A DNA stretch of 64,000 nt from Eubacteriales bacterium (GTDB lineage Bacteria > Bacillota > Clostridia > Lachnospirales > Lachnospiraceae): assembly GCA_030524715.1 (NCBI GenBank), contig JAUNGB010000018.1, forward strand, positions 1 to 64,000. The letters run 5' to 3'. The translations under genes were made by a program, and so were the position numbers. The notes under the pieces were generated by a model that was given only the letters and a program-made list of their open reading frames with translations, was not told the DNA's origin and searched no databases. The first letter of the stretch is position 1. Every line of letters begins with the position of its first letter. Shown one piece after another: positions 8,885 through 22,556 of this stretch.

Positions 8885-9508
8885 TTGAAACAGAGAAATG
8901 AACTACAGACAGAACTGGCTGGCAGCGAGTTTGGCATTAAGGGTGAGTGTGTCATCAGCCTGATGCTGACGAAGCTTGATATTATTAATACTGTGCTTTT
9001 TATGAAACTGCACCGGAATGTGATCCAGATGAAGACCGGAAGGCTGAAATCCTATGAGAGCGTATGTAAGAAGCTGGAAAAAAAGGGACTGGAACTCAGT
9101 TTCCCTGTGGCATTGGAAAAAATCAATGACCTGATCGGAGTACGGGCAATCTGCGCTTATGTGGACGATATTTATCAAGTGGCCGAGATGATAGAAAAGC
9201 AAAAAGATATCAGAATTATAAAAGTAAAGGATTATATCAGGAATCCCAAGAAATCCGGCTATCAGAGCCTCCATCTGATATTGGAGGCAGCTATTGCATT
9301 CCAGGACGGGATTCAGTGGATAAAGATCGAACTGCAGCTTCGCACCGCAGCAATGGATTACTGGGCGAATCTGGATCATCAGCTTCGCTATAAGAGAGGG
9401 GCTAAAGAGGCGGAGAGCATTGACGGTGAATTGAGGCAATGTGCGGAAGTGATCGCGGATCTGGATCAGAAAATGCTTAAAATAAGAAAGAAAATTGATA
9501 AGATATAA
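8885..9508 (+). CDS. Small alarmone synthetase (RelA/SpoT domain)
   Basis: A 207-aa protein consisting of a single RelA/SpoT synthetase domain, which makes (p)ppGpp from ATP and GDP or GTP. Visible motifs are GRLKSYESVCKKL, INDLIGVRAICAY, the GYQSLH loop after RNPKKS, and ELQLRTAAMDYWANLDH. There is no HD hydrolase domain and no TGS or ACT domain, so it is of the small synthetase (YjbM/YwaC) class. The start is a TTG with a weak ribosome site (AGTAGGAAATGG). It stands alone between two terminators. Confidence 0.88.
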   Translation: MKQRNELQTELAGSEFGIKGECVISLMLTKLDIINTVLFMKLHRNVIQMKTGRLKSYESVCKKLEKKGLELSFPVALEKINDLIGVRAICAYVDDIYQVAEMIEKQKDIRIIKVKDYIRNPKKSGYQSLHLILEAAIAFQDGIQWIKIELQLRTAAMDYWANLDHQLRYKRGAKEAESIDGELRQCAEVIADLDQKMLKIRKKIDKI

Positions 9509-10688: not shown

Positions 10689-10736
10689 TAATGGCGATGC
10701 CGCCGTTAGGCGGCACGTATGTTTAGGAGGAAAGTT

Positions 10737-12485
10737 ATGTTACAGATAATTTTGATTTTGGCTGTTTTCGTGCTGTGCGTGATCCCCATGGGACGATACA
10801 TGTATCACATCGCGTCCGGCAGGAAAACTTTTGCGGACCCTCTGTTCGACAGGGTGGATAATGGAATTTACAGAATCTGCCGTATTGACAGAACGGGGAT
10901 GGATTGGAAACAATACACGCTGAATCTTTTAATGACCAATGGGGTGATGGTATTTGCGGGATATGCGGTGCTGAGGCTGCAGGAAATCCTGTTCCTGAAT
11001 CCTAACGGTATTGAAGGTATGGAATCCACGCTTTCTTTTAATACGATCATCAGCTTTATGACAAACACAAACCTGCAGCATTATTCCGGCGAGTCGGGTC
11101 TTTCTTATTTAAGCCAGATGGCCGTCATTATTTTTATGATGTTTACATCCGCTGCGTCCGGTTATGCGGCATGTATGGCGCTTTGCCGGGGATTTGCAGG
11201 CAGGAAAAAGGATCTGGGCAATTTTTATGAGGATATGATTCGTATCACTACGCGTATTTTTCTTCCATGGTGCTTGGTTTTTGGCCTGGTTTTGATCTGG
11301 CAGGGTTCTCCATGTACATTTGGAGGAAACTTTACGGTAGAAACGATTCAGGATAAGTTTCAGAGCTTTGCCGTAGGGCCTATCGCAGCCCTTGAAATCA
11401 TCAAGCATCTTGGAACAAACGGCGGCGGTTTTCTTGGGGCAAACTCTGCCACACCATTTGAAAACCCGACCATCGTCACAAACCTGATTGAACTGATTTC
11501 TATGATGATTCTGCCGGGCGCATGCGTGCTGACCTTTGGCAAGATGACAATGGAGAGAAGGAAAGAAATCAAACAGGCGGCGGCAGCTTCCAATATGCCC
11601 GTACCTGTAAAAGAAAAGGAACCCTTATTCGGAAAACAGGGAAGAACTGTTTTTGCCGCAATGGCCGTTATTTTCCTGATTGGACTCACTGTGTGCTATT
11701 TCTCTGAAAAAGCGGGAAATCCACGGCTGGAAGAGGTGGGGCTTAACCAGGATATGGGAAGTATGGAAGGAAAAGAGGTCCGCTTCGGTATTGATCAGTC
11801 GGCGTTGTTTACTACGGTGACCACTTCCTTTACAACGGGTACAGTAAACAATATGCACGATACGCTGACGCCTCTGGGCGGCATGATCCCGCTGTTACAT
11901 ATGATGCTGAATAACGTATTCGGCGGAATCGGAGTTGGCCTTATGAATATGCTGATGTACGCGATCCTGACTGTATTTATCTGCGGTCTGATGGTAGGGC
12001 GTACGCCTGAATATCTGGGAAAGAAGATCGAAGGAAAGGAGATGAAGCTGGTGGCCATTGTTATTTTGATCCATCCGCTTCTGATCCTGGGCTTTTCCGC
12101 GCTGGCTGTTTCCACACAGGCAGGCCTTTCAGGCATCACGAATCCCACCTTTCACGGATTATCTCAGGTATTATATGAGTATTCATCGGCTGCCGCAAAT
12201 AACGGTTCCGGATTTGAAGGACTGGCAGATAACAGTTATTTCTGGAATATCACAGCAGGGCTGGCGATGTTCTTCGGACGCTATATAGCGATTGTGGCGC
12301 AGCTTGCCATCGCGGGCTCCCTTCTTGCGAAAAAGCGGGTTACAGAGTCTGTTGGCACTATGCGTACAGATAACGTAATGTTTACGGTGCTTCTTGTATT
12401 TATCGTATATATTTTTGCGGCTCTGACCTTCTTCCCGGCGCTGGCCCTTGGACCGATCGCAGAGCATTTGACTTTATGGTTTTAA
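10737..12485 (+). CDS. kdpA: Potassium-transporting ATPase subunit A
   Basis: The potassium-binding, channel-like subunit of KdpFABC, 582 aa, with about ten membrane segments. It has the four selectivity-filter-like regions, including NTNLQHYSGESGLSYLSQ, GTNGGGFLGANSATPFENP and TTSFTTGTVNNMHDTLTPL. The ATG at 10737 has AGGAGG placed correctly. It is followed by kdpB after 137 bases containing an 8-bp hairpin. Confidence 0.97.
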   Translation: MLQIILILAVFVLCVIPMGRYMYHIASGRKTFADPLFDRVDNGIYRICRIDRTGMDWKQYTLNLLMTNGVMVFAGYAVLRLQEILFLNPNGIEGMESTLSFNTIISFMTNTNLQHYSGESGLSYLSQMAVIIFMMFTSAASGYAACMALCRGFAGRKKDLGNFYEDMIRITTRIFLPWCLVFGLVLIWQGSPCTFGGNFTVETIQDKFQSFAVGPIAALEIIKHLGTNGGGFLGANSATPFENPTIVTNLIELISMMILPGACVLTFGKMTMERRKEIKQAAAASNMPVPVKEKEPLFGKQGRTVFAAMAVIFLIGLTVCYFSEKAGNPRLEEVGLNQDMGSMEGKEVRFGIDQSALFTTVTTSFTTGTVNNMHDTLTPLGGMIPLLHMMLNNVFGGIGVGLMNMLMYAILTVFICGLMVGRTPEYLGKKIEGKEMKLVAIVILIHPLLILGFSALAVSTQAGLSGITNPTFHGLSQVLYEYSSAAANNGSGFEGLADNSYFWNITAGLAMFFGRYIAIVAQLAIAGSLLAKKRVTESVGTMRTDNVMFTVLLVFIVYIFAALTFFPALALGPIAEHLTLWF

Positions 12486-12500
12486 GAGGAAAGCGTGAAT

Positions 12501-12526
12501 TACCCATTATCTGAAGGCAATGGGTA
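12501..12526 (+). other. Hairpin between kdpA and kdpB
   Basis: TACCCATT (12501-12508) pairs with AATGGGTA (12519-12526). It has no T-run, so it is more likely a processing or stability element inside the operon than a terminator. Confidence 0.5.
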
Positions 12527-12622
12527 TCTAAGGGGCTTAGTTCTTATTTAAAAAGGAAATCATCCGCTTTCATTTACAGAAATTTAATACGGAGATTTAA
12601 ACTTTAGAAAGGGTGTAAGGAA

Positions 12623-14698
12623 ATGTCTAAGAAACAGCAAAAAACCAGGTTCATAACAAGGGACATTCTGAAAAGCTCTGTCATCGGCGCTTTTCAGAAG
12701 CTGGATCCCAGATATATGATAAAAAATCCGGTTATGTTCGTAGTTGAAATCGGTTTTATTCTGACGTTGGTCATGACGGTTGTTCCCACTGTTTTCGGGG
12801 ACAGCGCCAGGACAGTCGCGGATAATAACCTGAGATTGTACGACGGAATCGTATGTGTGATTTTGTTTATTACGGTATTGTTTGCGAATTTTGCGGAATC
12901 GGTGGCGGAAGGCCGGGGAAAGGCCCAGGCTGAGTCCCTGAAAAAGACCAAGCAGGATACAAAGTCCCGCCTTCTGAATGCCGACGGAACGGAAACCATC
13001 GTAAGCGCTTCTCAATTAAAAAAGGACGACGTTGTACTTGTAAAAGCAGGCGAGGTGATTCCCAATGACGGCGAAGTCATCGAGGGAATCGCTTCTGTGG
13101 ACGAATCCGCGATTACCGGAGAGTCCGCTCCTGTAACAAGAGAGGCCGGCACGGATTTCTCTTCCGTGACCGGAGGGACGACGGTAGTCAGCGACTGGCT
13201 GAAGATCAGGATTACGTCAAAACCGGGTGAATCCTTCCTGGATAAGATGATCTCACTGGTAGAAGGCGCTTCCAGGCAGAAAACGCCCAATGAGATCGCT
13301 CTGAACACGCTGCTGGTTGTCCTGACGATCATCTTTTTGATCGTAGTCGTATGTATGTATCCTTTTGCGCGATATCTTGAAGTTGAGATTCCGGTTTCCA
13401 CTATGATCGCTCTTCTGGTATGCCTGATTCCCACCACCATCGGCGGCCTGCTTTCGGCCATCGGTATTGCCGGAATGGATCGTGTAACAAGATTTAATGT
13501 GATCGCTATGTCCGGTAAAGCTGTAGAAGCCTGCGGAGATGTGGATACTATGATTCTTGACAAGACAGGTACGATTACTTTCGGCAACCGTCTCGCGGCA
13601 GAATTTTACCCGGTAAAGGGAAAGAAGAAAGAGGATCTGATCGATTATTCCGTCATGTGTTCTCTGTGCGATCCCACGCCCGAAGGAAAATCTACGGTGG
13701 AACTGGGCCGGAGTATGGGAACCAGAATTGACGACAGCGTAAGGGATCAGATGGAATTTATTGAATTTACCGCACAGTCCAAAATGTCGGGCGTAAATCT
13801 GCCGGACGGCTCCAAAGTCAGAAAAGGAGCGTCCGAGGCCATTAAGGCTATGGTAAAGGCGGGAGGCGGAAGCATTCCGGCGGATCTGGACGGCATTGTG
13901 GCAGAAATCTCCGGCCTTGGAGGAACACCGCTGGTGGTTACGGCCGACAACGTTATTTATGGCGTCATTTATCTGAAGGATACGGTAAAACCGGGTCTGG
14001 TGGAACGTTTTCAACGACTTCGGGATATTGGAATTAAAACCATCATGTGTACGGGCGACAACCCGCTGACAGCCGCAACCATTGCCAGAGAAGCCGGGGT
14101 GGACGGATTTATTGCGGAATGTAAGCCGGAGGATAAGATCGAGGCGATCAGGAAGGAGCAGGCGGAAGGCAAGCTGGTAGCCATGACCGGCGACGGCACC
14201 AATGACGCTCCGGCCCTTGCCCAGGCGGATGTAGGGCTTGCCATGAATTCCGGTACTTCAGCGGCAAAAGAGGCTGCAAACATGGTTGACCTGGATTCTG
14301 ACCCCACGAAAATTCTCGAGGTAGTAGAAATCGGCAAACAGCTTCTGATCACCCGGGGTTCGCTGACAACCTTCAGTATCGCAAACGATATTGCGAAATA
14401 TTTTGCGATTATTCCGGCAATGTTTACGATCGTGCTGCCGCAGATGCAGATACTGAATATTATGAAGCTTACAACGCCTACTTCGGCCATTTTGTCGGCA
14501 CTTATTTTTAATGCGATCATTATTCCCTGCCTGATTCCCATTGCCATGCGGGGAGTTAAGTACAAGCCCATGAGCGCGGAGAAGATGCTTCTTAAGAACA
14601 TGGGGGTCTATGGCCTGGGCGGTATTATTGTACCTTTCGTCGGAATTAAGATCATTGACTGTATTGTGGCGCCTTTGCTGGCACTGCTGGGGATGTAA
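12623..14698 (+). CDS. kdpB: Potassium-transporting ATPase subunit B
   Basis: The P-type ATPase subunit, 691 aa, that hydrolyses ATP to drive uptake through KdpA. The phosphorylated aspartate is in DKTGTIT, the actuator loop is TGES, and the hinge motif is TGDGTNDAP. Length and order match the family. The serine in TGES that is used for inhibitory phosphorylation in other bacteria is present. Confidence 0.98.
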
Positions 14699-14710
14699 GG
14701 AGGAATTTCC

Positions 14711-15349
14711 ATGAAATCATTTCTTAAATATTTAAAAAGCGGAGTGATTCTGACCGTGCTGATGCTTGTGATCTGCGGCTTCGCCTATCCGGCGGCGCTG
14801 ACCGGGCTTGGGCAGCTTATTTTCCCAAATCAGGCCAACGGAAGCCTGATTACCGCAGAAGGTAAAAAAACATCAGATCCTGATGAGGCGGTTGGCTCCG
14901 CAATCGTAGGGCAGGATTTTTCGGGAGACGAAAGGTATTTTCAGGGGCGTGTCTCCAGCATCAATTATAACACCTATGACAATGAGGAAGAAGCGTTGGC
15001 TAACGTTTCTTCCGGAAACACGAACTATGGAGCGACCAATGAAGAGTTAAAGGCCCGTGTAAAAGAGGATGTGGAGGAATTTATAAAAACCCATCCGGAT
15101 GTTGAGAAAGGAGAGATTCCCGCGGATCTTCTGACAGCGTCGGGCTCCGGTATGGATCCGGATATCACACCGGAATCAGCAGAGATCCAGATTCCGGCAA
15201 TCGCAAAGGCTTCCGGTTTAAGCGAAGAAGAGCTTCATACGATCGTTGAGAACAATACACAGGGAAAGCTTTTCGGTATATTCGGACATGAAAGAGTGAA
15301 CGTTCTGAAATGTAATCTGGAGATCGCGGCAGCAATCGGTGAAATATAG
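14711..15349 (+). CDS. kdpC: Potassium-transporting ATPase subunit C
   Basis: The 212-aa single-span subunit of KdpFABC. One membrane segment lies near residues 12-34, then an extracytoplasmic domain with the family motifs FQGRVSS and ASGSGMDPDITP and the helix IPAIAKASGLSEEEL. It starts 12 bases after kdpB with GTAAGGAGG upstream. Confidence 0.96.
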   Translation: MKSFLKYLKSGVILTVLMLVICGFAYPAALTGLGQLIFPNQANGSLITAEGKKTSDPDEAVGSAIVGQDFSGDERYFQGRVSSINYNTYDNEEEALANVSSGNTNYGATNEELKARVKEDVEEFIKTHPDVEKGEIPADLLTASGSGMDPDITPESAEIQIPAIAKASGLSEEELHTIVENNTQGKLFGIFGHERVNVLKCNLEIAAAIGEI

Positions 15350-15448
15350 AATAAAGCAGCATCAGGCAAAAGGAAACTCCGTCGGACGTCGCGTCAGAGG
15401 TGAGATGCATCCTTTATCAGAGTGTGTTTTGTGCATAAGGAGGAACCA

Positions 15449-17461
15449 ATGGGGGAAGAAAGACCGAGTCCGGAGCAGCTTCTGGCACGGATTCATGCGG
15501 AGAATGAGCGGATCCAGAAGAAGGAACGTGGAAAATTAAAAATTTTTCTGGGATTTGCGGCGGGAACAGGCAAAACCTATGCTATGCTGCAGGCGGCTCA
15601 GGATCTTTTGCGGCACAAGGTGGATGTGGCCGCGGGCTATGTGGAACCCCATGCCAGGCCCGACACCAGCGCAATGATGAAAGGCCTGGAAACGATTCCG
15701 TTTCTGATGGTGGAATATAAAGGGATCAGGATACGTGAGTTTGATCTTGACGCTGCCCTTAAAAGGCGTCCCCGTGTCCTTCTGGTGGATGAACTGGCGC
15801 ACACCAACGCGCCCGGATGCCGTCATCAAAAGCGTTACCAGGATATCGAAGAACTGTTGGAGCACGGAATTAATGTTTATACAACAGTTAATATTCAGCA
15901 TTTGGAGAGCCTGAACGATATTGTGGAAAGTATTACCGGTATTGAGGTAAAGGAGAGAATTCCGGATCGGATCTTTGACAGTGCCGACCAGGTTAAGTTG
16001 GTGGATATTGAGGCTGAGGAACTGATCGAGCGTATGCGTGACGGGAAAATTTATCAGGAAATTCAGGCTCAGCGGGCTCTTCAGAATTTTTTTACCAGGG
16101 ATAAGCTTGTGGCGCTCAGGGAAATTGCGCTGCGCCGGATGGCGGATCGTGTGAACTATCTGGCGGAAGAGGAAAGAAAAACCATGGGTACGGGAGAATT
16201 TTCATCCGGGGAACATGTCCTCACCTGCGTTTCCCCTTCTCCGACGAACGCAAAGGTAATACGGACTGCGGCGAGGCTGGCATATGCGTTTCATGCAGAG
16301 TTTACGGCTCTTTATGTGGAAAACAGGAATTTACGGAATATGGACGAAAAAACAAAGAAACGCCGTGATGAGAACCTGCGTCTTGCAAGAACGTTGGGGG
16401 CTAAAGTCGCGACCGTGTACGGAGAAGATGTAGCCCGCCAGATCGCTGAGTATGCCAAGATAGAAAACGCCACAAAGCTGGTGATAGGAAGAACGAATCA
16501 CCGGCTGTTTCTGGGACAGAAAAAAGGCACGCTGGCAGACGGCATTAATCAGTATGCCCCGAATCTGGATGTTTATATTATTCCGGATCTGAAAAACAGG
16601 GAAAAATGCGGATCTTATAAACCGGGAAGAGCTTCCGTGACAAAAGTGACAAAATCCATAGGGAAACTCAGCAGAGAAGATTTCCTTATCATGGCAGTTC
16701 TAATGGCCGTTTGTACATCGGCGGGATTTTTGATGAGGAAACTGGGATTGACGGAATCGAATATTATCATGATTTACCTTTTGGGCGTTATGGCGACAGC
16801 GGCTATGACAGAAGGATATATTTGTTCTGTTTTTGCATCTTTAAGCAGTGTACTTCTGTTTAATTATTTTTTTACCCGGCCAAGATTCAGCCTGAGAGCT
16901 TACGGACACAGTTATCCAATAACCTTTGTAATGATGCTTCTGGTGGGCTTTTTCAGTTCATACATGATGACAAAAATTCAGAGGCAAAGCCAGGAGAACG
17001 CAAAGCGGGCTTACCGTACGGAGATTCTGCTGACAAACAGCCGCAAACTGAGGCGTGCGTATACCATGGAGGCCGTAAGCAATGAAATAGCCGCTCAGAT
17101 TCAGAAGCTGCTCAATCTTACCGTGATCGTATACCTGAAAAAAGATGATCGCATTCAGCGGCCCCAAATCTATCTGCGCAAGGGAATCCATGAGGCGCAG
17201 CGCGATGAGCTGGCGCTGGATTATACGGCCAAAACGGAACAGGCGGTTGCAGCATGGGTATTTGGCAACGGACACAGGGCGGGCTGCACTACTCATACGC
17301 TTCCCGGAGCAAAGGCTATTTATCTTCCTGTTATGGGCGGAGAAAATGTGACGGCGGTTGTAGGAATCGTATTGGAAGAAAAGCGGGAAATTGATGTTTT
17401 CGAGTATGACATTATTATGGCAATGCTGGATGAAGCCGCACTGGTGTTAGAGCGCGTTTGA
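15449..17461 (+). CDS. KdpD-like sensor lacking a kinase domain
   Basis: A 670-aa protein that covers only the sensory part of KdpD. In order it has the N-terminal KdpD P-loop domain (FAAGTGKTYAML; LLVDELAHTN), a USP domain (about 255-380), four membrane segments of the DUF4118 type (about 410-510), and a GAF-like domain with GAKAIYLPV and AVVGIVLEE. It stops where the histidine kinase core should begin. The USP domain shows SPS at 262-264, exactly 20 residues, then FTALY, which is the c-di-AMP motif described for Staphylococcus aureus KdpD. The ATG at 15449 follows AAGGAGGAACC. It probably works with the separate kinase at 20181. A similar split is, from memory, possible for KdpX of Clostridium acetobutylicum. 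Confidence 0.9.
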   Translation: MGEERPSPEQLLARIHAENERIQKKERGKLKIFLGFAAGTGKTYAMLQAAQDLLRHKVDVAAGYVEPHARPDTSAMMKGLETIPFLMVEYKGIRIREFDLDAALKRRPRVLLVDELAHTNAPGCRHQKRYQDIEELLEHGINVYTTVNIQHLESLNDIVESITGIEVKERIPDRIFDSADQVKLVDIEAEELIERMRDGKIYQEIQAQRALQNFFTRDKLVALREIALRRMADRVNYLAEEERKTMGTGEFSSGEHVLTCVSPSPTNAKVIRTAARLAYAFHAEFTALYVENRNLRNMDEKTKKRRDENLRLARTLGAKVATVYGEDVARQIAEYAKIENATKLVIGRTNHRLFLGQKKGTLADGINQYAPNLDVYIIPDLKNREKCGSYKPGRASVTKVTKSIGKLSREDFLIMAVLMAVCTSAGFLMRKLGLTESNIIMIYLLGVMATAAMTEGYICSVFASLSSVLLFNYFFTRPRFSLRAYGHSYPITFVMMLLVGFFSSYMMTKIQRQSQENAKRAYRTEILLTNSRKLRRAYTMEAVSNEIAAQIQKLLNLTVIVYLKKDDRIQRPQIYLRKGIHEAQRDELALDYTAKTEQAVAAWVFGNGHRAGCTTHTLPGAKAIYLPVMGGENVTAVVGIVLEEKREIDVFEYDIIMAMLDEAALVLERV

Positions 17462-17495
17462 ACGCGGATAAGCATTCCCACGCTTCAGGTTAATC

Positions 17496-17559
17496 TTTAT
17501 ACAGTCTTAATGCGGATGAAAAGACTCTTTTACTTTCTTTATTTTGTATGACGTATATT
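17496..17559 (+). promoter_or_regulatory. Candidate KdpE box and promoter 3 (trk operon)
   Basis: TTTAT (17496-17500) and TTAAT (17507-17511) lie 11 bp apart and continue to GC, as at 10177. A -10-like TATATT is at 17554-17559, 47 bases from the second half-site. It would place the TrkH/TrkA genes under the same control as kdp. A fragment of a small dispersed repeat (GATAAGCATTCC) is just upstream. Confidence 0.6.
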
Positions 17560-17596
17560 AAGATTTAATAAAGAAGTATAAAGGAGTCTCTTACAA

Positions 17597-18979
17597 ATGG
17601 ACAGGCTTTTATATCTGAACAGGCTTTTGCAAAGAACCAGGGTTTTTACCAGGCTTTTTCGTAAAAAGAGAAAGCTGTCATCCTCTCAGATCATCATACT
17701 GGGCTTTTCCAGCGTGATCCTGCTGGGAACCGGGCTTTTGATGCTGCCGTTTTCCAGCAGGCAGGGAACTGCAACGCCCTTTTTTGACGCTTTGTTTACC
17801 TCTACGTCGGCTGTCTGCGTGACAGGGCTTGTGATCTATGATACGGCTTCCTATTGGTCCGATTTTGGGCAGATGATCCTGATGCTTCTGATCCAGGTGG
17901 GAGGTATGGGGGTAATCACGGTAGCGGCTTTATTTTCCATTCTTTCAGGACGGAAGATATCCCTGATGCAGCGCAGCACCATGCAGGAGGCGATCTCCGC
18001 TCCCAAGGTAGGAGGGATTGTTCGGCTGACGGGATTTATTGTAAAAACAGCGTTAGTGACCGAATTTTTAGGAGCCGCCGTCATGTCGCCCGTTTTTGTC
18101 CGTGATTTTGGAATCAGGGGTTTTTGGATGGCGCTGTTCCATTCCGTATCCGCTTTCTGCAATGCTGGATTTGATCTTATGGGAGTCAGGAGCCGCTTTT
18201 CTTCTTTGACGGGTTATTCCTCTGAGCCTGTGATTAATCTGGTTATAATGCTCCTGATTATCATTGGCGGCATTGGCTTTCTTACCTGGGATGATATCAG
18301 GACAAAGCGGTGGCATTTACATAAATACCGGATGCAGAGTAAGGTGATTCTTGGGACGACAGCCATTTTACTTCTTATACCGGCTCTGTTTTTTTATTTT
18401 TATGAATTTAAGGCCCTGGAACCGGTGGAACGTTTTTGGGCTTCCGTGTTTCAGGCTGTTACGCCCCGTACGGCGGGCTTTAATACCGTGAATTTGTCTG
18501 ATATGAGTGAGGCCGGGCTTTCCATCGTCATTGTGCTGATGCTGATTGGAGGTTCGCCGGGTTCTACTGCAGGAGGTATGAAGACCACGACGGTTGCCGT
18601 GCTTTTTGCTGCCGCTGTATCCACGTTTTCCAGAAATGAGGATACGCATCTGTTCGGACGCCGGGTGGAGCAGGAAGTAGTAAAAAATGCGGCGACAATT
18701 CTGATCATGTATGCCGTGTTGTTTTTTACAGGGGGATTGGTCATCAGCATTGCAGAGGGCCTTCCCATGCTGGATTGTCTGTTTGAGGCGGCTTCGGCAA
18801 TCGGTACGGTCGGCCTGTCTATGGGGATTACAGCAGAGCTTGGGGGATTATCAAGAGGCATTTTGATTTTGCTGATGTTTTTGGGACGTGTAGGAGGTCT
18901 TACGCTTGTGTTTGCGGCGATGTCCGGTACACGTACGAATGTGTCAAAATTGCCCAGGGAAAAAATAACGGTCGGATAA
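17597..18979 (+). CDS. TrkH/KtrB-type potassium channel subunit
   Basis: A 460-aa membrane protein of the TrkH/KtrB superfamily with four channel-like repeats. The filter segments are visible as TSAVCVTGL, SAFCNAGFD, TPRTAGFNT and SAIGTVGLS; each carries the conserved glycine. The length suits KtrB. It is followed 16 bases later by its regulatory partner, so the two form a sodium- or proton-linked potassium uptake system beside the ATP-driven Kdp. Confidence 0.95.
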   Translation: MDRLLYLNRLLQRTRVFTRLFRKKRKLSSSQIIILGFSSVILLGTGLLMLPFSSRQGTATPFFDALFTSTSAVCVTGLVIYDTASYWSDFGQMILMLLIQVGGMGVITVAALFSILSGRKISLMQRSTMQEAISAPKVGGIVRLTGFIVKTALVTEFLGAAVMSPVFVRDFGIRGFWMALFHSVSAFCNAGFDLMGVRSRFSSLTGYSSEPVINLVIMLLIIIGGIGFLTWDDIRTKRWHLHKYRMQSKVILGTTAILLLIPALFFYFYEFKALEPVERFWASVFQAVTPRTAGFNTVNLSDMSEAGLSIVIVLMLIGGSPGSTAGGMKTTTVAVLFAAAVSTFSRNEDTHLFGRRVEQEVVKNAATILIMYAVLFFTGGLVISIAEGLPMLDCLFEAASAIGTVGLSMGITAELGGLSRGILILLMFLGRVGGLTLVFAAMSGTRTNVSKLPREKITVG

Positions 18980-18995
18980 AGGAGGATGCGATACT

Positions 18996-19643
18996 ATGAA
19001 ATCAATTTTATTAATAGGACTCGGACGATTTGGAAAGCATATTGCCATGGAGCTGAATGCGCTTGGGCATCAGGTTATGGCAGTTGACCATGTGGAAGAA
19101 CGTGTGGAAGATGTAATGCCATTTGTGACAAACGGACAGATCGGGGACAGTACGAATGCTGATTTTCTGGAGTCTCTTGGGATTCGTAACTATGATGTGT
19201 GCATTGTGGCCATCGGAAATGATTTTCAAAGTTCCCTGGAAACAACCTCCCTCTTAAAAGAACTGGGAGCAGAACTGGTCGTGGCCAGAGCCGCCAGGGA
19301 TGTGCAGGCAAAGTTTTTGCTTCGGAACGGGGCGGATGAGGTAGTATATCCCGAAAAGCAGCTTGCCAAATGGACGGCCATCCGCTACAGCGCCGACCAT
19401 ATCCTTGATTATATAGAGCTTGATAAGGAACACGCCATGTTTGAAATACTCGTCCCGCCGGAATGGGCAGGAAGGTCTGTGGGGCAGATCGATATCCGGA
19501 AAAAATATCATATTAATATTATGGGAATTAAGAAAAACGGAAGGCTGGAGCTGGCTGTCTCTCCCGAGACTGTACTGGAAAAAGATGAAACGATGCTGGT
19601 TCTCGGGAGAAACAGAGATTTGCAGAAGTGCTTCCATATATAG
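18996..19643 (+). CDS. TrkA/KtrA-type regulatory subunit
   Basis: A 215-aa cytoplasmic RCK protein that gates the channel encoded upstream. The Rossmann motif GLGRFGKHIAMEL is at the N-terminus, with the acidic end of strand two in VDHVEERV. A C-terminal RCK_C domain follows (KKYHINIMGIKKNGRLELA). In related KtrA proteins the RCK_C domain binds c-di-AMP; whether this one does cannot be read directly. Confidence 0.95.
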   Translation: MKSILLIGLGRFGKHIAMELNALGHQVMAVDHVEERVEDVMPFVTNGQIGDSTNADFLESLGIRNYDVCIVAIGNDFQSSLETTSLLKELGAELVVARAARDVQAKFLLRNGADEVVYPEKQLAKWTAIRYSADHILDYIELDKEHAMFEILVPPEWAGRSVGQIDIRKKYHINIMGIKKNGRLELAVSPETVLEKDETMLVLGRNRDLQKCFHI

Positions 19644-19685
19644 AATACAGATACAGGAAAGTACCTTTGGAAGGAGGGGATAACT

Positions 19686-20042
19686 ATGCGGGATATGCTG
19701 CTGTTGGCGCCTCTGGCAATGATATTTATTTTGGGATGGTTTATTGTCAAAAAGGTTGATTATTTTCTGGAAAACAATCAGGAGATTCAGCCGCAGGATG
19801 TCGGCAGAAGACTGCGGATCGGATTTTCTGATCCATTGGCCGCCGAAAGTATTTCAGATATTCTGGAAAAATATTCGGCAAAATATCCCGATATTCCCGT
19901 CAGCCTTTTTTATGGAACAGAAGAGGAATTGGTGAGAAAGCTGTCAGCGGATAAACTGGACATTATCTTTCTGGCGGAATATGGGAAACTACCTTCTGAT
20001 AAAGAAGTTGCAGATAAAGAAATTACAGACCGGAAAGCTTAG
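19686..20042 (+). CDS. Membrane-anchored truncated binding-fold protein
   Basis: A 118-aa protein with one N-terminal membrane segment (about residues 4-22) and a domain that looks like the first lobe of a type 2 periplasmic binding fold (RLRIGFSDPLAAESISDIL, then DKLDIIFLAEYG). The second lobe is missing. It has an AAGGAGGGG ribosome site and lies 42 bases after the TrkA-like gene, so it is probably co-transcribed. I know of no named potassium component of this form; it may be a regulatory anchor or a decayed gene. The stretch 20043-20180 after it shows no clear gene. Confidence 0.6.
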   Translation: MRDMLLLAPLAMIFILGWFIVKKVDYFLENNQEIQPQDVGRRLRIGFSDPLAAESISDILEKYSAKYPDIPVSLFYGTEEELVRKLSADKLDIIFLAEYGKLPSDKEVADKEITDRKA

Positions 20043-20180
20043 AGTTTTGAAGTAGCGGGAAACAACGGAACGTGATATGATAATAGGCGTTGATATTTCA
20101 CTCTGCAGCGGAAAGGGACAGAGCTGTCCGGAGCAGTTCCCCAGACTTTTGCAGAGGCGGTAAAGCAGGAGGAAAACCTA

Positions 20181-21746
20181 ATGTCAGGAGAGCAAATGTC
20201 CTGTGAAAAAAGAAGATGGTTCCGTGTGTCAGCAATGCCTGTCCGGGATATCGGGAAGACGATTCTTGTACTGTTGGCGGCGACCCTGGTCAGCTATCTG
20301 TTTTACGGGCTTGGTTTTACAGAGGCAAATATTATATCGGTTTATATTTTTGGGGTGCTTGTGGTTTCTGTCATAACAACCAGCCGGCTTTGCAGTATTG
20401 TTTCGTCCATTGTAAGCGTGCTGGTGTTTAATTTCTTTTTTACCATACCCCGGTTTACCTTTCGGTTTTATGACTCGGCATATTTTGTAACCTTTATTAT
20501 CATGTTTATGATCGCTATTCTGACAGGCTCCCTTGCCGCCAGGCTCAAGGATAATGCCAGGCAGTTTGCCAGATCGGCATTTCGTACTAAAATTTTGTTT
20601 GAAACAAACCAGCTTCTGCAGAAAGAAGACGATGAACAGTCTGTTGTTAATGCCACGGCAGAACAGATCCTGAAATTGCTGAACAGGGACATTGTGATCT
20701 ATCTGCCGGAGGGAGACGCTCTGTCAAAGGCAGGCGTATACAGAACGGAAGACAGCAGTTATGAGGAATTGACATCAGAGGACGAAAAAGCTGCGGCAGT
20801 CTGGGCTTTTCATAACAATAATCACGCAGGAGCTACAACGGATACTTTTTCCGGCGCCAAATGCCTGTATCTGGCTATCCGGATGAATCAAAAGGTATAC
20901 GGCGTGGTGGGAATTGTCATGGACAGTGTTCCCCTGGAAGCTTTTGAAAACAGCGTGGTTCTGTCCATACTTGGGGAGTGTGCGCTGGCCATCGAGAACA
21001 TTAAAAATGCCCGGGAAAAAGAAGAGGCTGCGATTTTTGCGAAAAATGAGCAGCTCCGGGCAAATCTGCTCCGGACGATCTCTCACGATCTGCGTACGCC
21101 GCTGACCTCCATTTCCGGAAATGCCAGCAATCTGATGTCCAATTACCAGAAGCTGGATGATACGGCAAGGAATCGTATTTTTACAGATATTTACGACGAT
21201 TCCATGTGGCTGATCAATCTGGTCGAAAATCTGTTATCGGTTACCAGGCTGGAAGAAGGACAGGTCAGATTAAAGCAGTCCGTAGAGCTGATGGATGAAG
21301 TTGTGGCAGAGGCGCTGCGCCATGTAAACAGGCAAAGTAAGGAGCATACCATCCATGCCGCCAGCGCAGAGGATCTGATACTTGTGAAAATTGACGCCAA
21401 GCTGGTGGTTCAGGTGTTGATCAATCTTGTGGACAATGCGATTAAATATACACAGGCGGGTTCCTGCATTGAAATCTTTACTGAGAAAAGGGACGGATGG
21501 GTCTGGGTATCTGTTTCCGACAATGGCCCGGGAATTTCAGACGAACAGAAGCTTCATGTATTTGATATGTTCTACAGCGGTGCAAATAAGATCGCGGACA
21601 GCCGGAGAAGCCTGGGGCTTGGCCTGTCTCTCTGCAAGTCCATCGTTACGGCTCACGGCGGGATCATCACAGTGTCCGACAACAAACCAGAAGGAACTGT
21701 ATTTACATTTACATTACCGGCAGGGGAGGTTGAACTGCATGAATAA
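20181..21746 (+). CDS. kdpD: KdpD-type histidine kinase without the N-terminal sensor
   Basis: A 521-aa membrane kinase. It has a DUF4118 membrane unit (about residues 28-120), a GAF-like domain with FSGAKCLYLA and GVVGIVMD, the dimerisation domain with the phospho-acceptor histidine at residue 302 (ISHDLRTPLTSISG), and an ATPase with LVDNAIKYT and SLGLGLSL. It lacks the P-loop and USP domains found in ordinary KdpD, which are supplied by the protein at 15449; both proteins keep their own DUF4118 and GAF units. The gene overlaps kdpE by 8 bases. Confidence 0.93.
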   Translation: MSGEQMSCEKRRWFRVSAMPVRDIGKTILVLLAATLVSYLFYGLGFTEANIISVYIFGVLVVSVITTSRLCSIVSSIVSVLVFNFFFTIPRFTFRFYDSAYFVTFIIMFMIAILTGSLAARLKDNARQFARSAFRTKILFETNQLLQKEDDEQSVVNATAEQILKLLNRDIVIYLPEGDALSKAGVYRTEDSSYEELTSEDEKAAAVWAFHNNNHAGATTDTFSGAKCLYLAIRMNQKVYGVVGIVMDSVPLEAFENSVVLSILGECALAIENIKNAREKEEAAIFAKNEQLRANLLRTISHDLRTPLTSISGNASNLMSNYQKLDDTARNRIFTDIYDDSMWLINLVENLLSVTRLEEGQVRLKQSVELMDEVVAEALRHVNRQSKEHTIHAASAEDLILVKIDAKLVVQVLINLVDNAIKYTQAGSCIEIFTEKRDGWVWVSVSDNGPGISDEQKLHVFDMFYSGANKIADSRRSLGLGLSLCKSIVTAHGGIITVSDNKPEGTVFTFTLPAGEVELHE

Positions 21747-22440
21747 ATCTTTAATACTGGTCGTAGAGGACGACGCTCCTGTACGCAATTTAATTACCAC
21801 TACATTAAAAACAAATGATTACCGTTATCTTGCGGCTACCAGCGGAGAGACTGCGATCCTGGAGGCTTCCTCCCATAATCCTGATATCATTCTTCTGGAT
21901 CTGGGGCTGCCGGATATGGACGGTGTGGAAGTGATCCAAAATATTCGATCCTGGTCAAATCTTCCGATTATCGTAATCAGCGCCAGAAGCGAGGATGCGG
22001 ATAAGATCAGAGCTCTTGACGCCGGAGCAGATGATTATCTGACAAAGCCGTTTTCAGTGGAAGAACTGTTAGCCAGAATTCGCGTGACCCAGCGCAGGCT
22101 TTCTTTTATGAGCGCGGAAATGCTTGCCACCAGTTCGGTATTTGAAAATGGAAAGCTCCGGGTGGATTATGTGGGCGGCTGTGCCTATCTGGACGGACAT
22201 GAGCTGCATCTGACTCCCATTGAATATAAACTGCTGTGCCTTTTGTCTAAAAACGTAGGGAAGGTTCTGACGCACACATTTATCACACAGAATATCTGGG
22301 GAAGGAGCTGGGATAATGATGTGGCGTCTCTCAGGGTTTTTATGGCGACGCTGCGTAAGAAGCTGGAACCCAATGCGGATTCACCCCAGTATATTCAGAC
22401 ACATATCGGAGTCGGTTACCGCATGCTGAAGGTGGAGTAA
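21739..22440 (+). CDS. kdpE: OmpR-type response regulator KdpE
   Basis: A 233-aa response regulator and partner of the kinase that it overlaps. The receiver has VVEDDAPVRNL, the phospho-acceptor aspartate in ILLDLGLPDMDG, and the lysine in YLTKPF. The winged-helix C-terminal domain includes LTPIEYKLLCLL and the recognition region DVASLRVFMATLRKKLE. The ATG at 21739 is the natural start; an in-frame extension upstream would run back into the kinase. It probably binds the boxes at 9725, 10177 and 17496. Confidence 0.95.
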   Translation: MNKSLILVVEDDAPVRNLITTTLKTNDYRYLAATSGETAILEASSHNPDIILLDLGLPDMDGVEVIQNIRSWSNLPIIVISARSEDADKIRALDAGADDYLTKPFSVEELLARIRVTQRRLSFMSAEMLATSSVFENGKLRVDYVGGCAYLDGHELHLTPIEYKLLCLLSKNVGKVLTHTFITQNIWGRSWDNDVASLRVFMATLRKKLEPNADSPQYIQTHIGVGYRMLKVE

Positions 22441-22526: not shown

Positions 22527-22556
22527 AAAAATGGCATGGTATTCCATGCCATTTTT
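22527..22556. terminator. Bidirectional terminator between kdpE and typA
   Basis: AAAAATGGCATGG pairs with CCATGCCATTTTT around a 4-base loop. A-runs and T-runs on both sides let it stop transcription from kdpE and from the opposing typA. Confidence 0.9.

Follow-up and report, generated by a model that had tools for sequence, protein, structure and literature searches.

Two incomplete KdpD proteins in a joint kdp–trk operon: a likely KdpB serine kinase and a separate histidine kinase from two KdpD lineages

Introduction

In E. coli, KdpD alone does two jobs, i.e., as an atypical serine kinase (ASK) and as a histidine kinase (HK), while the two activities may also sit on separate chains (PMC11018627). 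Here, we describe such a division in the window, i.e., the whole analysed stretch of 64,000 nucleotides (contig JAUNGB010000018.1) from a gut bacterium with a 5.28 Mb genome. Its potassium pump genes kdpABC are followed by a KdpD chain of 670 amino acids (aa; P0001) without HK, by trk genes and by a KdpD-type HK of 521 aa (P0002) without ASK. Named relatives by locus include the Lachnospiraceae Faecalicatena orotica and Dorea sp. D27, so the bacterium is probably a member of this family.

The ASK is the KdpD domain, which phosphorylates Ser162 of the pump subunit KdpB. Residues 1-230 of KdpD suffice for this, deletion of the HK domains leaves KdpB phosphorylation unaffected, and changes of Walker A, D109A, E110A and W39A/R190A (almost) abolish it (PMC11018627). 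The same paper reports stimulation of the short D. geothermalis KdpD by cyclic di-AMP (c-di-AMP) as well as K+ gating of E. coli KdpD in membrane discs. Its survey of 5495 species found as the commonest split pair a KdpD/Usp chain plus a transmembrane (TM)/GAF/DHpCA chain, and it proposes full-length KdpD to be a fusion of once separate chains. It also cites, as reference 55, work on a split kdpD in A. acidocaldarius, and raises the question whether, in a KdpD with both sites, the serine kinase is under c-di-AMP control and the HK under K+ control. For S. aureus, binding of c-di-AMP to KdpD is reported to inhibit kdpFABC upregulation under salt stress (PMC4686210).

The window resembles the split systems of PMC11018627 in that the ASK chain adjoins the pump genes, while a TM/GAF/DHpCA kinase is encoded separately together with KdpE; for this second half, the GAF and KdpE models score under their cut-offs. 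In contrast to the commonest published ASK chain, which has no TM/GAF part, the window's ASK chain keeps DUF4118-GAF, such that TM-GAF is found on both chains. Furthermore, the kinase chain is part of a Trk module, unlike that of the published pair. The Deinococcus KdpD-N proteins (D. geothermalis DgKdpD, PMC11018627; D. radiodurans kdpD-N, PMC5716572) lack an HK as well, and the D. radiodurans gene also adjoins the pump genes. DgKdpD is described as a KdpD/Usp-domain version with c-di-AMP-stimulated ASK, to which the window protein adds about 290 residues (DUF4118 and GAF-like). The family model NF038185 (KdpD-like non-kinase potassium sensor; 373 positions) matches residues 5-380 with 349 bits, below the curated 550, and stops before DUF4118. 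S. aureus KdpD is, unlike the 670-aa chain, a sensor HK; its USP (7JI4, PMC8214093) and that of the window share five consensus residues and the 20-residue spacing of an older motif. Split KdpDs are thus already known, and what distinguishes the window from the commonest published pair is TM-GAF on both chains and a probable origin by complementary loss. Among the titles and abstract openings searched, we found no description of this form or of such an origin within a Trk-Kdp operon; the supplementary data of PMC11018627 may count the form.

Results

Domain content and proposed roles of the two chains

An earlier note on this DNA had read the two genes, 2.7 kb apart, as one KdpD divided into a kinase-less c-di-AMP sensor and a kinase. 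The domain content of both proteins bears out that the functions are separated on two chains (Table 1). The 670-aa protein combines the Walker-type KdpD domain with USP, DUF4118 and a GAF-like part and shows neither HisKA nor HATPase in Pfam, just as the note had described it. Solved chains match the KdpD domain (2r8r), the USP (7JI4) and the membrane part (2ksf). The 521-aa chain matches DUF4118, HisKA and HATPase_c, again with a GAF-like part below cut-off, but neither KdpD nor Usp. Its frame is open and contains strings typical of HK boxes, which we take to be the H, N, G1 and G2 boxes. A kinase core overlooked in the 670-aa gene was also sought: the 135 bases that separate its stop codon from trkH hold no kinase remnant in any of the three forward frames, and the sole tblastn match of the DHp/CA part over the whole window (21033-21743) lies inside the 521-aa gene.

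The term 'kinase-less' holds for the HK, but not for the serine kinase. In E. coli KdpD numbering, the 670-aa chain retains G30, G36-K37-T38, D109, E110 and R190, with Tyr39 in place of the E. coli Trp; that is, G-X5-GKT, the aromatic/Arg adenine pair and the Walker B DE are all present. With these ASK residues the chain likely has a direct target, KdpB, and no need to act through the other chain, which removes the ground for the note's conclusion that it must act in trans. KdpB carries the TGES motif that holds E. coli Ser162, its serine being Ser168. This motif is common to P-type ATPases generally, so TGES alone is no proof of KdpB regulation.

Given these observations, the 670-aa chain is most likely a membrane-bound, c-di-AMP-sensitive serine kinase for KdpB. 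For the locus as a whole, we consider it probable that two K+-transport modules placed end to end have one common signalling system, in which the 670-aa chain serves as serine kinase for KdpB, promoted by c-di-AMP, and the 521-aa chain as K+-sensing kinase for KdpE. Module 1 would comprise kdpABC and the KdpD without HK, module 2 trkH-trkA-(small open reading frame, ORF)-kdpD-kdpE, whose KdpD would retain only K+ sensing and HK. By analogy with other species, the 521-aa kinase would phosphorylate KdpE at low K+ and expression, including that of kdpABC, would rise. Once K+ is restored, c-di-AMP would increase, bind to the USP and promote phosphorylation of KdpB Ser168 by the 670-aa chain, and the pump would stop; K+ may also be an input via the retained DUF4118-GAF part. 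The 521-aa kinase, having lost the USP, would have no visible direct c-di-AMP input, and control of both trk and kdp by KdpE is putative. Since serine kinase and HK are on different chains, each can be removed and tested alone. The operon is thus suited to the 2024 question of c-di-AMP versus K+ control of the two kinases (PMC11018627).

The c-di-AMP site

For c-di-AMP binding, the motif SXS-X20-FTAXY was reported (PMC4686210). In the later structure, F, T and A of this motif lie outside the interface, and the consensus was revised to (A/G/C)-X-S-X-S-X2-N plus Y/F at 271 (PMC8214093). The USP of the window fits both: SPS and FTALY are spaced by exactly 20 residues, as the earlier note had observed, and CVSPSPTN at residues 260-267, whose N267 corresponds to N249, plus FTALY provide 5/5 consensus residues (C, S, S, N, Y). 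Of 3847 distinct ORF translations collected, 20 contain a match to the regular expression S.S.{20}FTA.Y; a USP match accompanies it in every one of the 26 ORFs concerned, so it is no chance string. One diadenylate cyclase match is found in the genome.

On the other hand, the variable contacts of S. aureus (K277, R279, Q280, Y281, H331) all differ in the window when its alignment to 7JI4 is inspected by eye, with L344 outside the aligned stretch, and the S. pneumoniae USP has a relative affinity of 6.2% despite 5/5 consensus residues (PMC8214093). Binding of c-di-AMP by the window's USP is thus likely, judged by its residues, but perhaps weak.

ASK residues and presence of the pump

We compared the fate of the ASK with the presence of its presumed target. 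KdpD-domain proteins were fetched from three overlapping surveys (299, 393 and 395 genomes), KdpA was sought in their genomes (labelled G; loci are labelled L), and eight ASK positions were scored. Set 1 comprises 85 rows from a table of 90 (dropped: E. coli, G395 at a contig edge, the 230-aa stand-alone L065 and the two parts of the G046 gene, L066, which a stop interrupts). Set 2 has 31 rows after one G795 fragment was dropped, and the 209- and 237-aa frames of G832 and G846 are outside the counts. A 'sole copy' is the only KdpD-domain row of its genome in the table. ASK/pump trees hold the 81 and 111 rows with enough TM-GAF.

For set 1, including the aromatic position 39, loss is found in 0/57 pump-linked or sole copies with kdpA compared to 14/28 copies without kdpA or beside another ASK. 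Ser38 was initially scored as loss (1/57, i.e., G457, vs. 14/28; G401 also has Ser) and was allowed before the second survey. The same criterion yields 2/21 vs. 7/10 for set 2 (p=0.0013). With a 'core' criterion that leaves out position 39, the 116 proteins of both sets show loss in 0/78 pump-linked or sole vs. 15/38 pumpless or accompanied copies (Fisher p=5.6e-9, kinship ignored). Erosion of the ASK where the pump is absent or a second ASK is present provides independent comparative support for a pump-related role of the KdpD domain.

Several observations weigh against our reading. The two exceptions of set 2 (G833 and G890, one genus) have Cys at position 39, and the 'core' criterion, which drops this position, was chosen after they were known. 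The Fisher test takes no account of kinship; parsimony counts 10 changes under the core criterion. An independent-pairs test gave median pairings without any wrong-way pair, but with too few informative pairs to reach significance. The decayed (GKTC) copy of G501 adjoins its own kdpA. We placed it among the extra copies; if it were scored as pump-linked, the strict criterion would have a further exception. All eight residues are intact in 14/26 pumpless copies, namely 11/20 in set 1 (G102, G138, G169, G174, G191, G246, G282, G289, G375, G389, G556) and 3/6 in set 2 (G844, G905, G920), as well as in 3/12 extra copies (G085, G140, G179). An ASK can hence persist without being needed for the pump. 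Concerning the c-di-AMP input, all five USP residues are kept in only 7/28 kinase-less chains, and the relaxed version in 11/28, with N249 often replaced by S or C, such that c-di-AMP binding cannot be generalised to kinase-less chains. Finally, GAF_3 scores 20.2 bits in the 670-aa and 24.1 bits in the 521-aa chain, both below the PF13492 cut-off of 27. The model reaches E<=0.01 in 5/11 aligned KdpDs, and on these profile scores the GAF call seems plausible though weak in both chains.

The intact pumpless copies are a mixed group: G102, G138, G191 and G282 are close relatives, the genomes G174 and G246 are just 76-77% complete, KdpA is matched weakly and in part in G191, a KdpB-like ORF adjoins the copy of G375, and G289, G844 and G920 show an altered stretch after R190. 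An intact ASK without a pump points to a pump that was lost recently or, possibly, to a second role or another substrate.

Two side observations concern the same proteins. Trk-linked full-length KdpDs with intact ASK occur in genomes that are at least 93% complete and show no full KdpA match (G102, G138, G169, G191, G282, G289, G389, G556, G844, G905). L065 (8010-8702, G282), from a genome without KdpA, is a stand-alone 230-aa KdpD-domain protein with a diverged Walker A (SGKTH) that overlaps an ORF resembling GreA by eye.

Does the 670-aa chain act on the kinase?

The 670-aa chain might phosphorylate KdpB and, in addition, modulate the kinase chain in trans. A single E. coli protein performs both activities (PMC11018627), and the DUF4118 matches predict both window chains in the membrane. 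We see no direct sign of interaction, however, and the points raised below against a heterodimer apply here as well, which makes such a double role rather unlikely.

We likewise regard as unlikely that the protein is solely a c-di-AMP sensor which forms a heterodimer with the 521-aa kinase via DUF4118-GAF and thereby alters KdpE phosphorylation. Both chains do have DUF4118-GAF, and c-di-AMP bound to KdpD inhibits the kdpFABC upregulation of S. aureus under salt stress (PMC4686210). Moreover, 18/23 ASK-decayed rows (18/21 of the full-length ones) retain the relaxed USP motif, compared to 53/93 ASK-intact rows. Where the ASK has decayed, the USP thus probably serves the HK, i.e., it can serve this kinase, too. 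But the 670-aa chain lacks the DHp/CA part, and its ASK supplies a likely target of its own. Furthermore, kinase-less chains coexist with a whole second KdpD that needs no helper in G145, G202, G861, G887 and G903. The TM-GAF parts of the two chains are only 35% identical and are not sisters; that is, the DUF4118-GAF units, which the earlier note had taken for a duplication that perhaps allows pairing, are old and diverged rather than freshly duplicated.

Probable origin by complementary loss

A survey of 299 genomes yielded 39 in which a KdpD domain is matched strongly (E of 1e-36 or better; count from the listing). Twelve of the 39, including the window's own, have a kinase-less chain of 637-699 aa with TM-GAF, and each of the 12 encodes a further DUF4118 protein whose open frame spans 479 aa or more. 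In the TM-GAF tree, the 670-aa chain falls among 11 further kinase-less chains, and the 521-aa kinase joins six full-length KdpDs linked to Trk and is nearest to L061 of G231 (77%). A careful tree of 55 of 58 rows (L036 kinase, L084 and L085 omitted as long or near-duplicate) supports sets of 12, 7 and 2 rows with 100/99, 100/100 and 100/98. Constraining the two window genes to be sisters lowers the log-likelihood by 230 units (approximately unbiased (AU) test, p=6.6e-63).

Gene order adds to this. In at least 8 of the 39 genomes (G063, G102, G111, G169, G228, G231, G282, G289), trkH-trkA-KdpD-KdpE is present, in some of them with the small ORF, and KdpA has no match. G887 encodes kdpABC, a 669-aa KdpD and, after a 1.9 kb gap, trkH, trkA, the small ORF, a whole KdpD of 894 aa and kdpE; we read this as the window's order before trimming. 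Compared to L061, the blastn blocks stop at window position 19932 (L061 7610) and resume at 20235 (L061 9050). This deletion of about 1.1 kb removed the end of the small ORF as well as ASK and USP of the second KdpD. On the evidence of this comparison, the 521-aa kinase is best read as the KdpD of a TrkH-TrkA-KdpD-KdpE module after the loss of ~1.1 kb. G119 represents an intermediate state, i.e., a 652-aa kinase with USP retained and ASK gone. G813 has the window's order without a separate small ORF; the first residues of its 583-aa kinase (outside the tree) are weakly similar to the small-ORF start (E 0.002), compatible with a deletion of its own.

Trees, the whole second KdpD of G887 and the deletion scar together argue for two separate KdpD lineages with complementary loss. 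The relatives indicate that the split arose by trimming two separate genes and not, as the earlier note had assumed, by breaking one. Under the tree model, both kinase-less KdpDs and kinases without ASK arose more than once: a single clade is rejected for the 9 kinases without ASK (p=0.0016) as well as for the 15 kinase-less KdpDs (p=4.8e-5) of the 55-row tree, the two show 8 and 4 state changes, respectively, and the kinase state changes 6 times in the 111-row tree.

That the short second KdpD is an assembly error or a pseudogene remnant is very improbable: the adjoining small ORF is indeed shortened at the same scar, but the 521-aa frame is open with its kinase boxes, and kinases without KdpD domain recur in G119, G141, G149, G813, G833, G908, G946 and F. 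orotica. Fission of one KdpD gene by internal TM-GAF duplication and subsequent loss, which the short distance and the complementary domain sets might suggest, is hardly credible and rejected, under the model used, by the AU test, the grouping of the two chains, the unsplit second KdpD in the same gene order of G887 and the scar.

Complementary loss leads to a wider proposal, which we hold tentatively and with somewhat more doubt than belief. The split KdpDs of Clostridia may have arisen by subfunctionalisation, whereby a Kdp-linked and a Trk-linked KdpD in one genome each lost the half that the other supplies, i.e., the HK in one case and the serine kinase followed by the USP in the other. 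The outcome would be a membrane serine kinase with two inputs (c-di-AMP, K+) and a K+-only HK common to Trk and Kdp. If true, evolution ran, at least in these lineages, opposite to the published scenario, in which full-length KdpD arose by fusion of an ASK chain and an HK chain.

Other arrangements were encountered as well. G591 and G562 (L116, L119) have another split, namely a 641-aa ASK-USP-TM-GAF chain and a separate 641-aa USP-TM-GAF-kinase. In G425, G665 and G360 (L129-L131), an ASK-USP-TM chain of 563-571 aa stands beside a TM-GAF-kinase of 493-518 aa. Bacilli provide a further variant at L083 and L084, in Erysipelotrichaceae and one other genome: the KdpD that follows TrkH-TrkA there has USP and kinase and lacks the ASK domain, and the locus end cuts the kinase of L084.

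Further features of the locus

The genes run in the order kdpA-kdpB-kdpC-670-aa chain-trkH-trkA-118-aa ORF-521-aa kinase-kdpE-type regulator, all on the + strand (10719-22440). For the regulator, the top NCBIfam model is KdpE with 216 bits, below its cut-off of 325 bits.

Table 1. Coordinates of the potassium transport and signalling features in the window, with supporting matches.
Feature	Position	Strand	Evidence
kdpA	10719..12485	+	Pfam KdpA 766 bits; sole KdpA match of the genome
kdpB	12623..14698	+	E1-E2 ATPase and hydrolase matches
kdpC	14711..15349	+	Pfam KdpC 219 bits
670-aa KdpD without HK, P0001 (ASK-USP-TM-GAF)	15449..17461	+	ORF, profile and structure-chain matches
KdpD domain, predicted ASK	15527..16153	+	PF02702 315 bits (residues 27-235); 2r8r 246 bits
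USP domain, c-di-AMP-type residues	16214..16537	+	Pfam Usp 27.5 bits (cut-off 24); 7JI4 E 1.8e-13
DUF4118, first copy	16685..17008	+	Pfam, 105 bits
GAF-like region, first copy	17066..17455	+	GAF_3 20.2 bits, under cut-off
TrkH-type K+ transporter subunit	17597..18979	+	Pfam TrkH 200 bits
TrkA/KtrA-type gating subunit	18996..19643	+	TrkA_N and TrkA_C
118-aa small ORF	19686..20042	+	LysR_substrate E 7.8e-10
Deletion scar, ~1.1 kb missing vs. relative L061	19933..20235	+	blastn block ends
521-aa KdpD-type HK without ASK and USP, P0002	20181..21746	+	DUF4118, HisKA, HATPase_c
KdpE-type response regulator, start set at MNKSLILVVEDD	21739..22440	+	Response_reg and Trans_reg_C
Terminator-like hairpin 3' of kdpE	22527..22556	+	pattern scan

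A pattern scan found no + strand terminator-like hairpin between the 670-aa gene and trkH. Terminator-like sites are no more frequent in the window than in shuffled sequences, so evidence from such hairpins is weak. A c-di-AMP riboswitch was sought as well, but within the whole window no Rfam family reaches its gathering score.

The 118-aa ORF has a hydrophobic N-terminus by eye and part of a LysR substrate-binding-like fold. A small ORF is kept between trkA and kdpD in L061, L068, L069, L079 and L162, mostly with 164-186 aa and thus longer than in the window. A role as ligand sensor within the Trk-KdpDE module is conceivable.

A 7-bp GC-rich hairpin (10698-10715) immediately 5' of the kdpA start codon may affect kdpA translation or be due to chance. 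Upstream of kdpA, the ORF at 8885-9508 resembles a small alarmone (RelA/SpoT-type) synthetase by eye.

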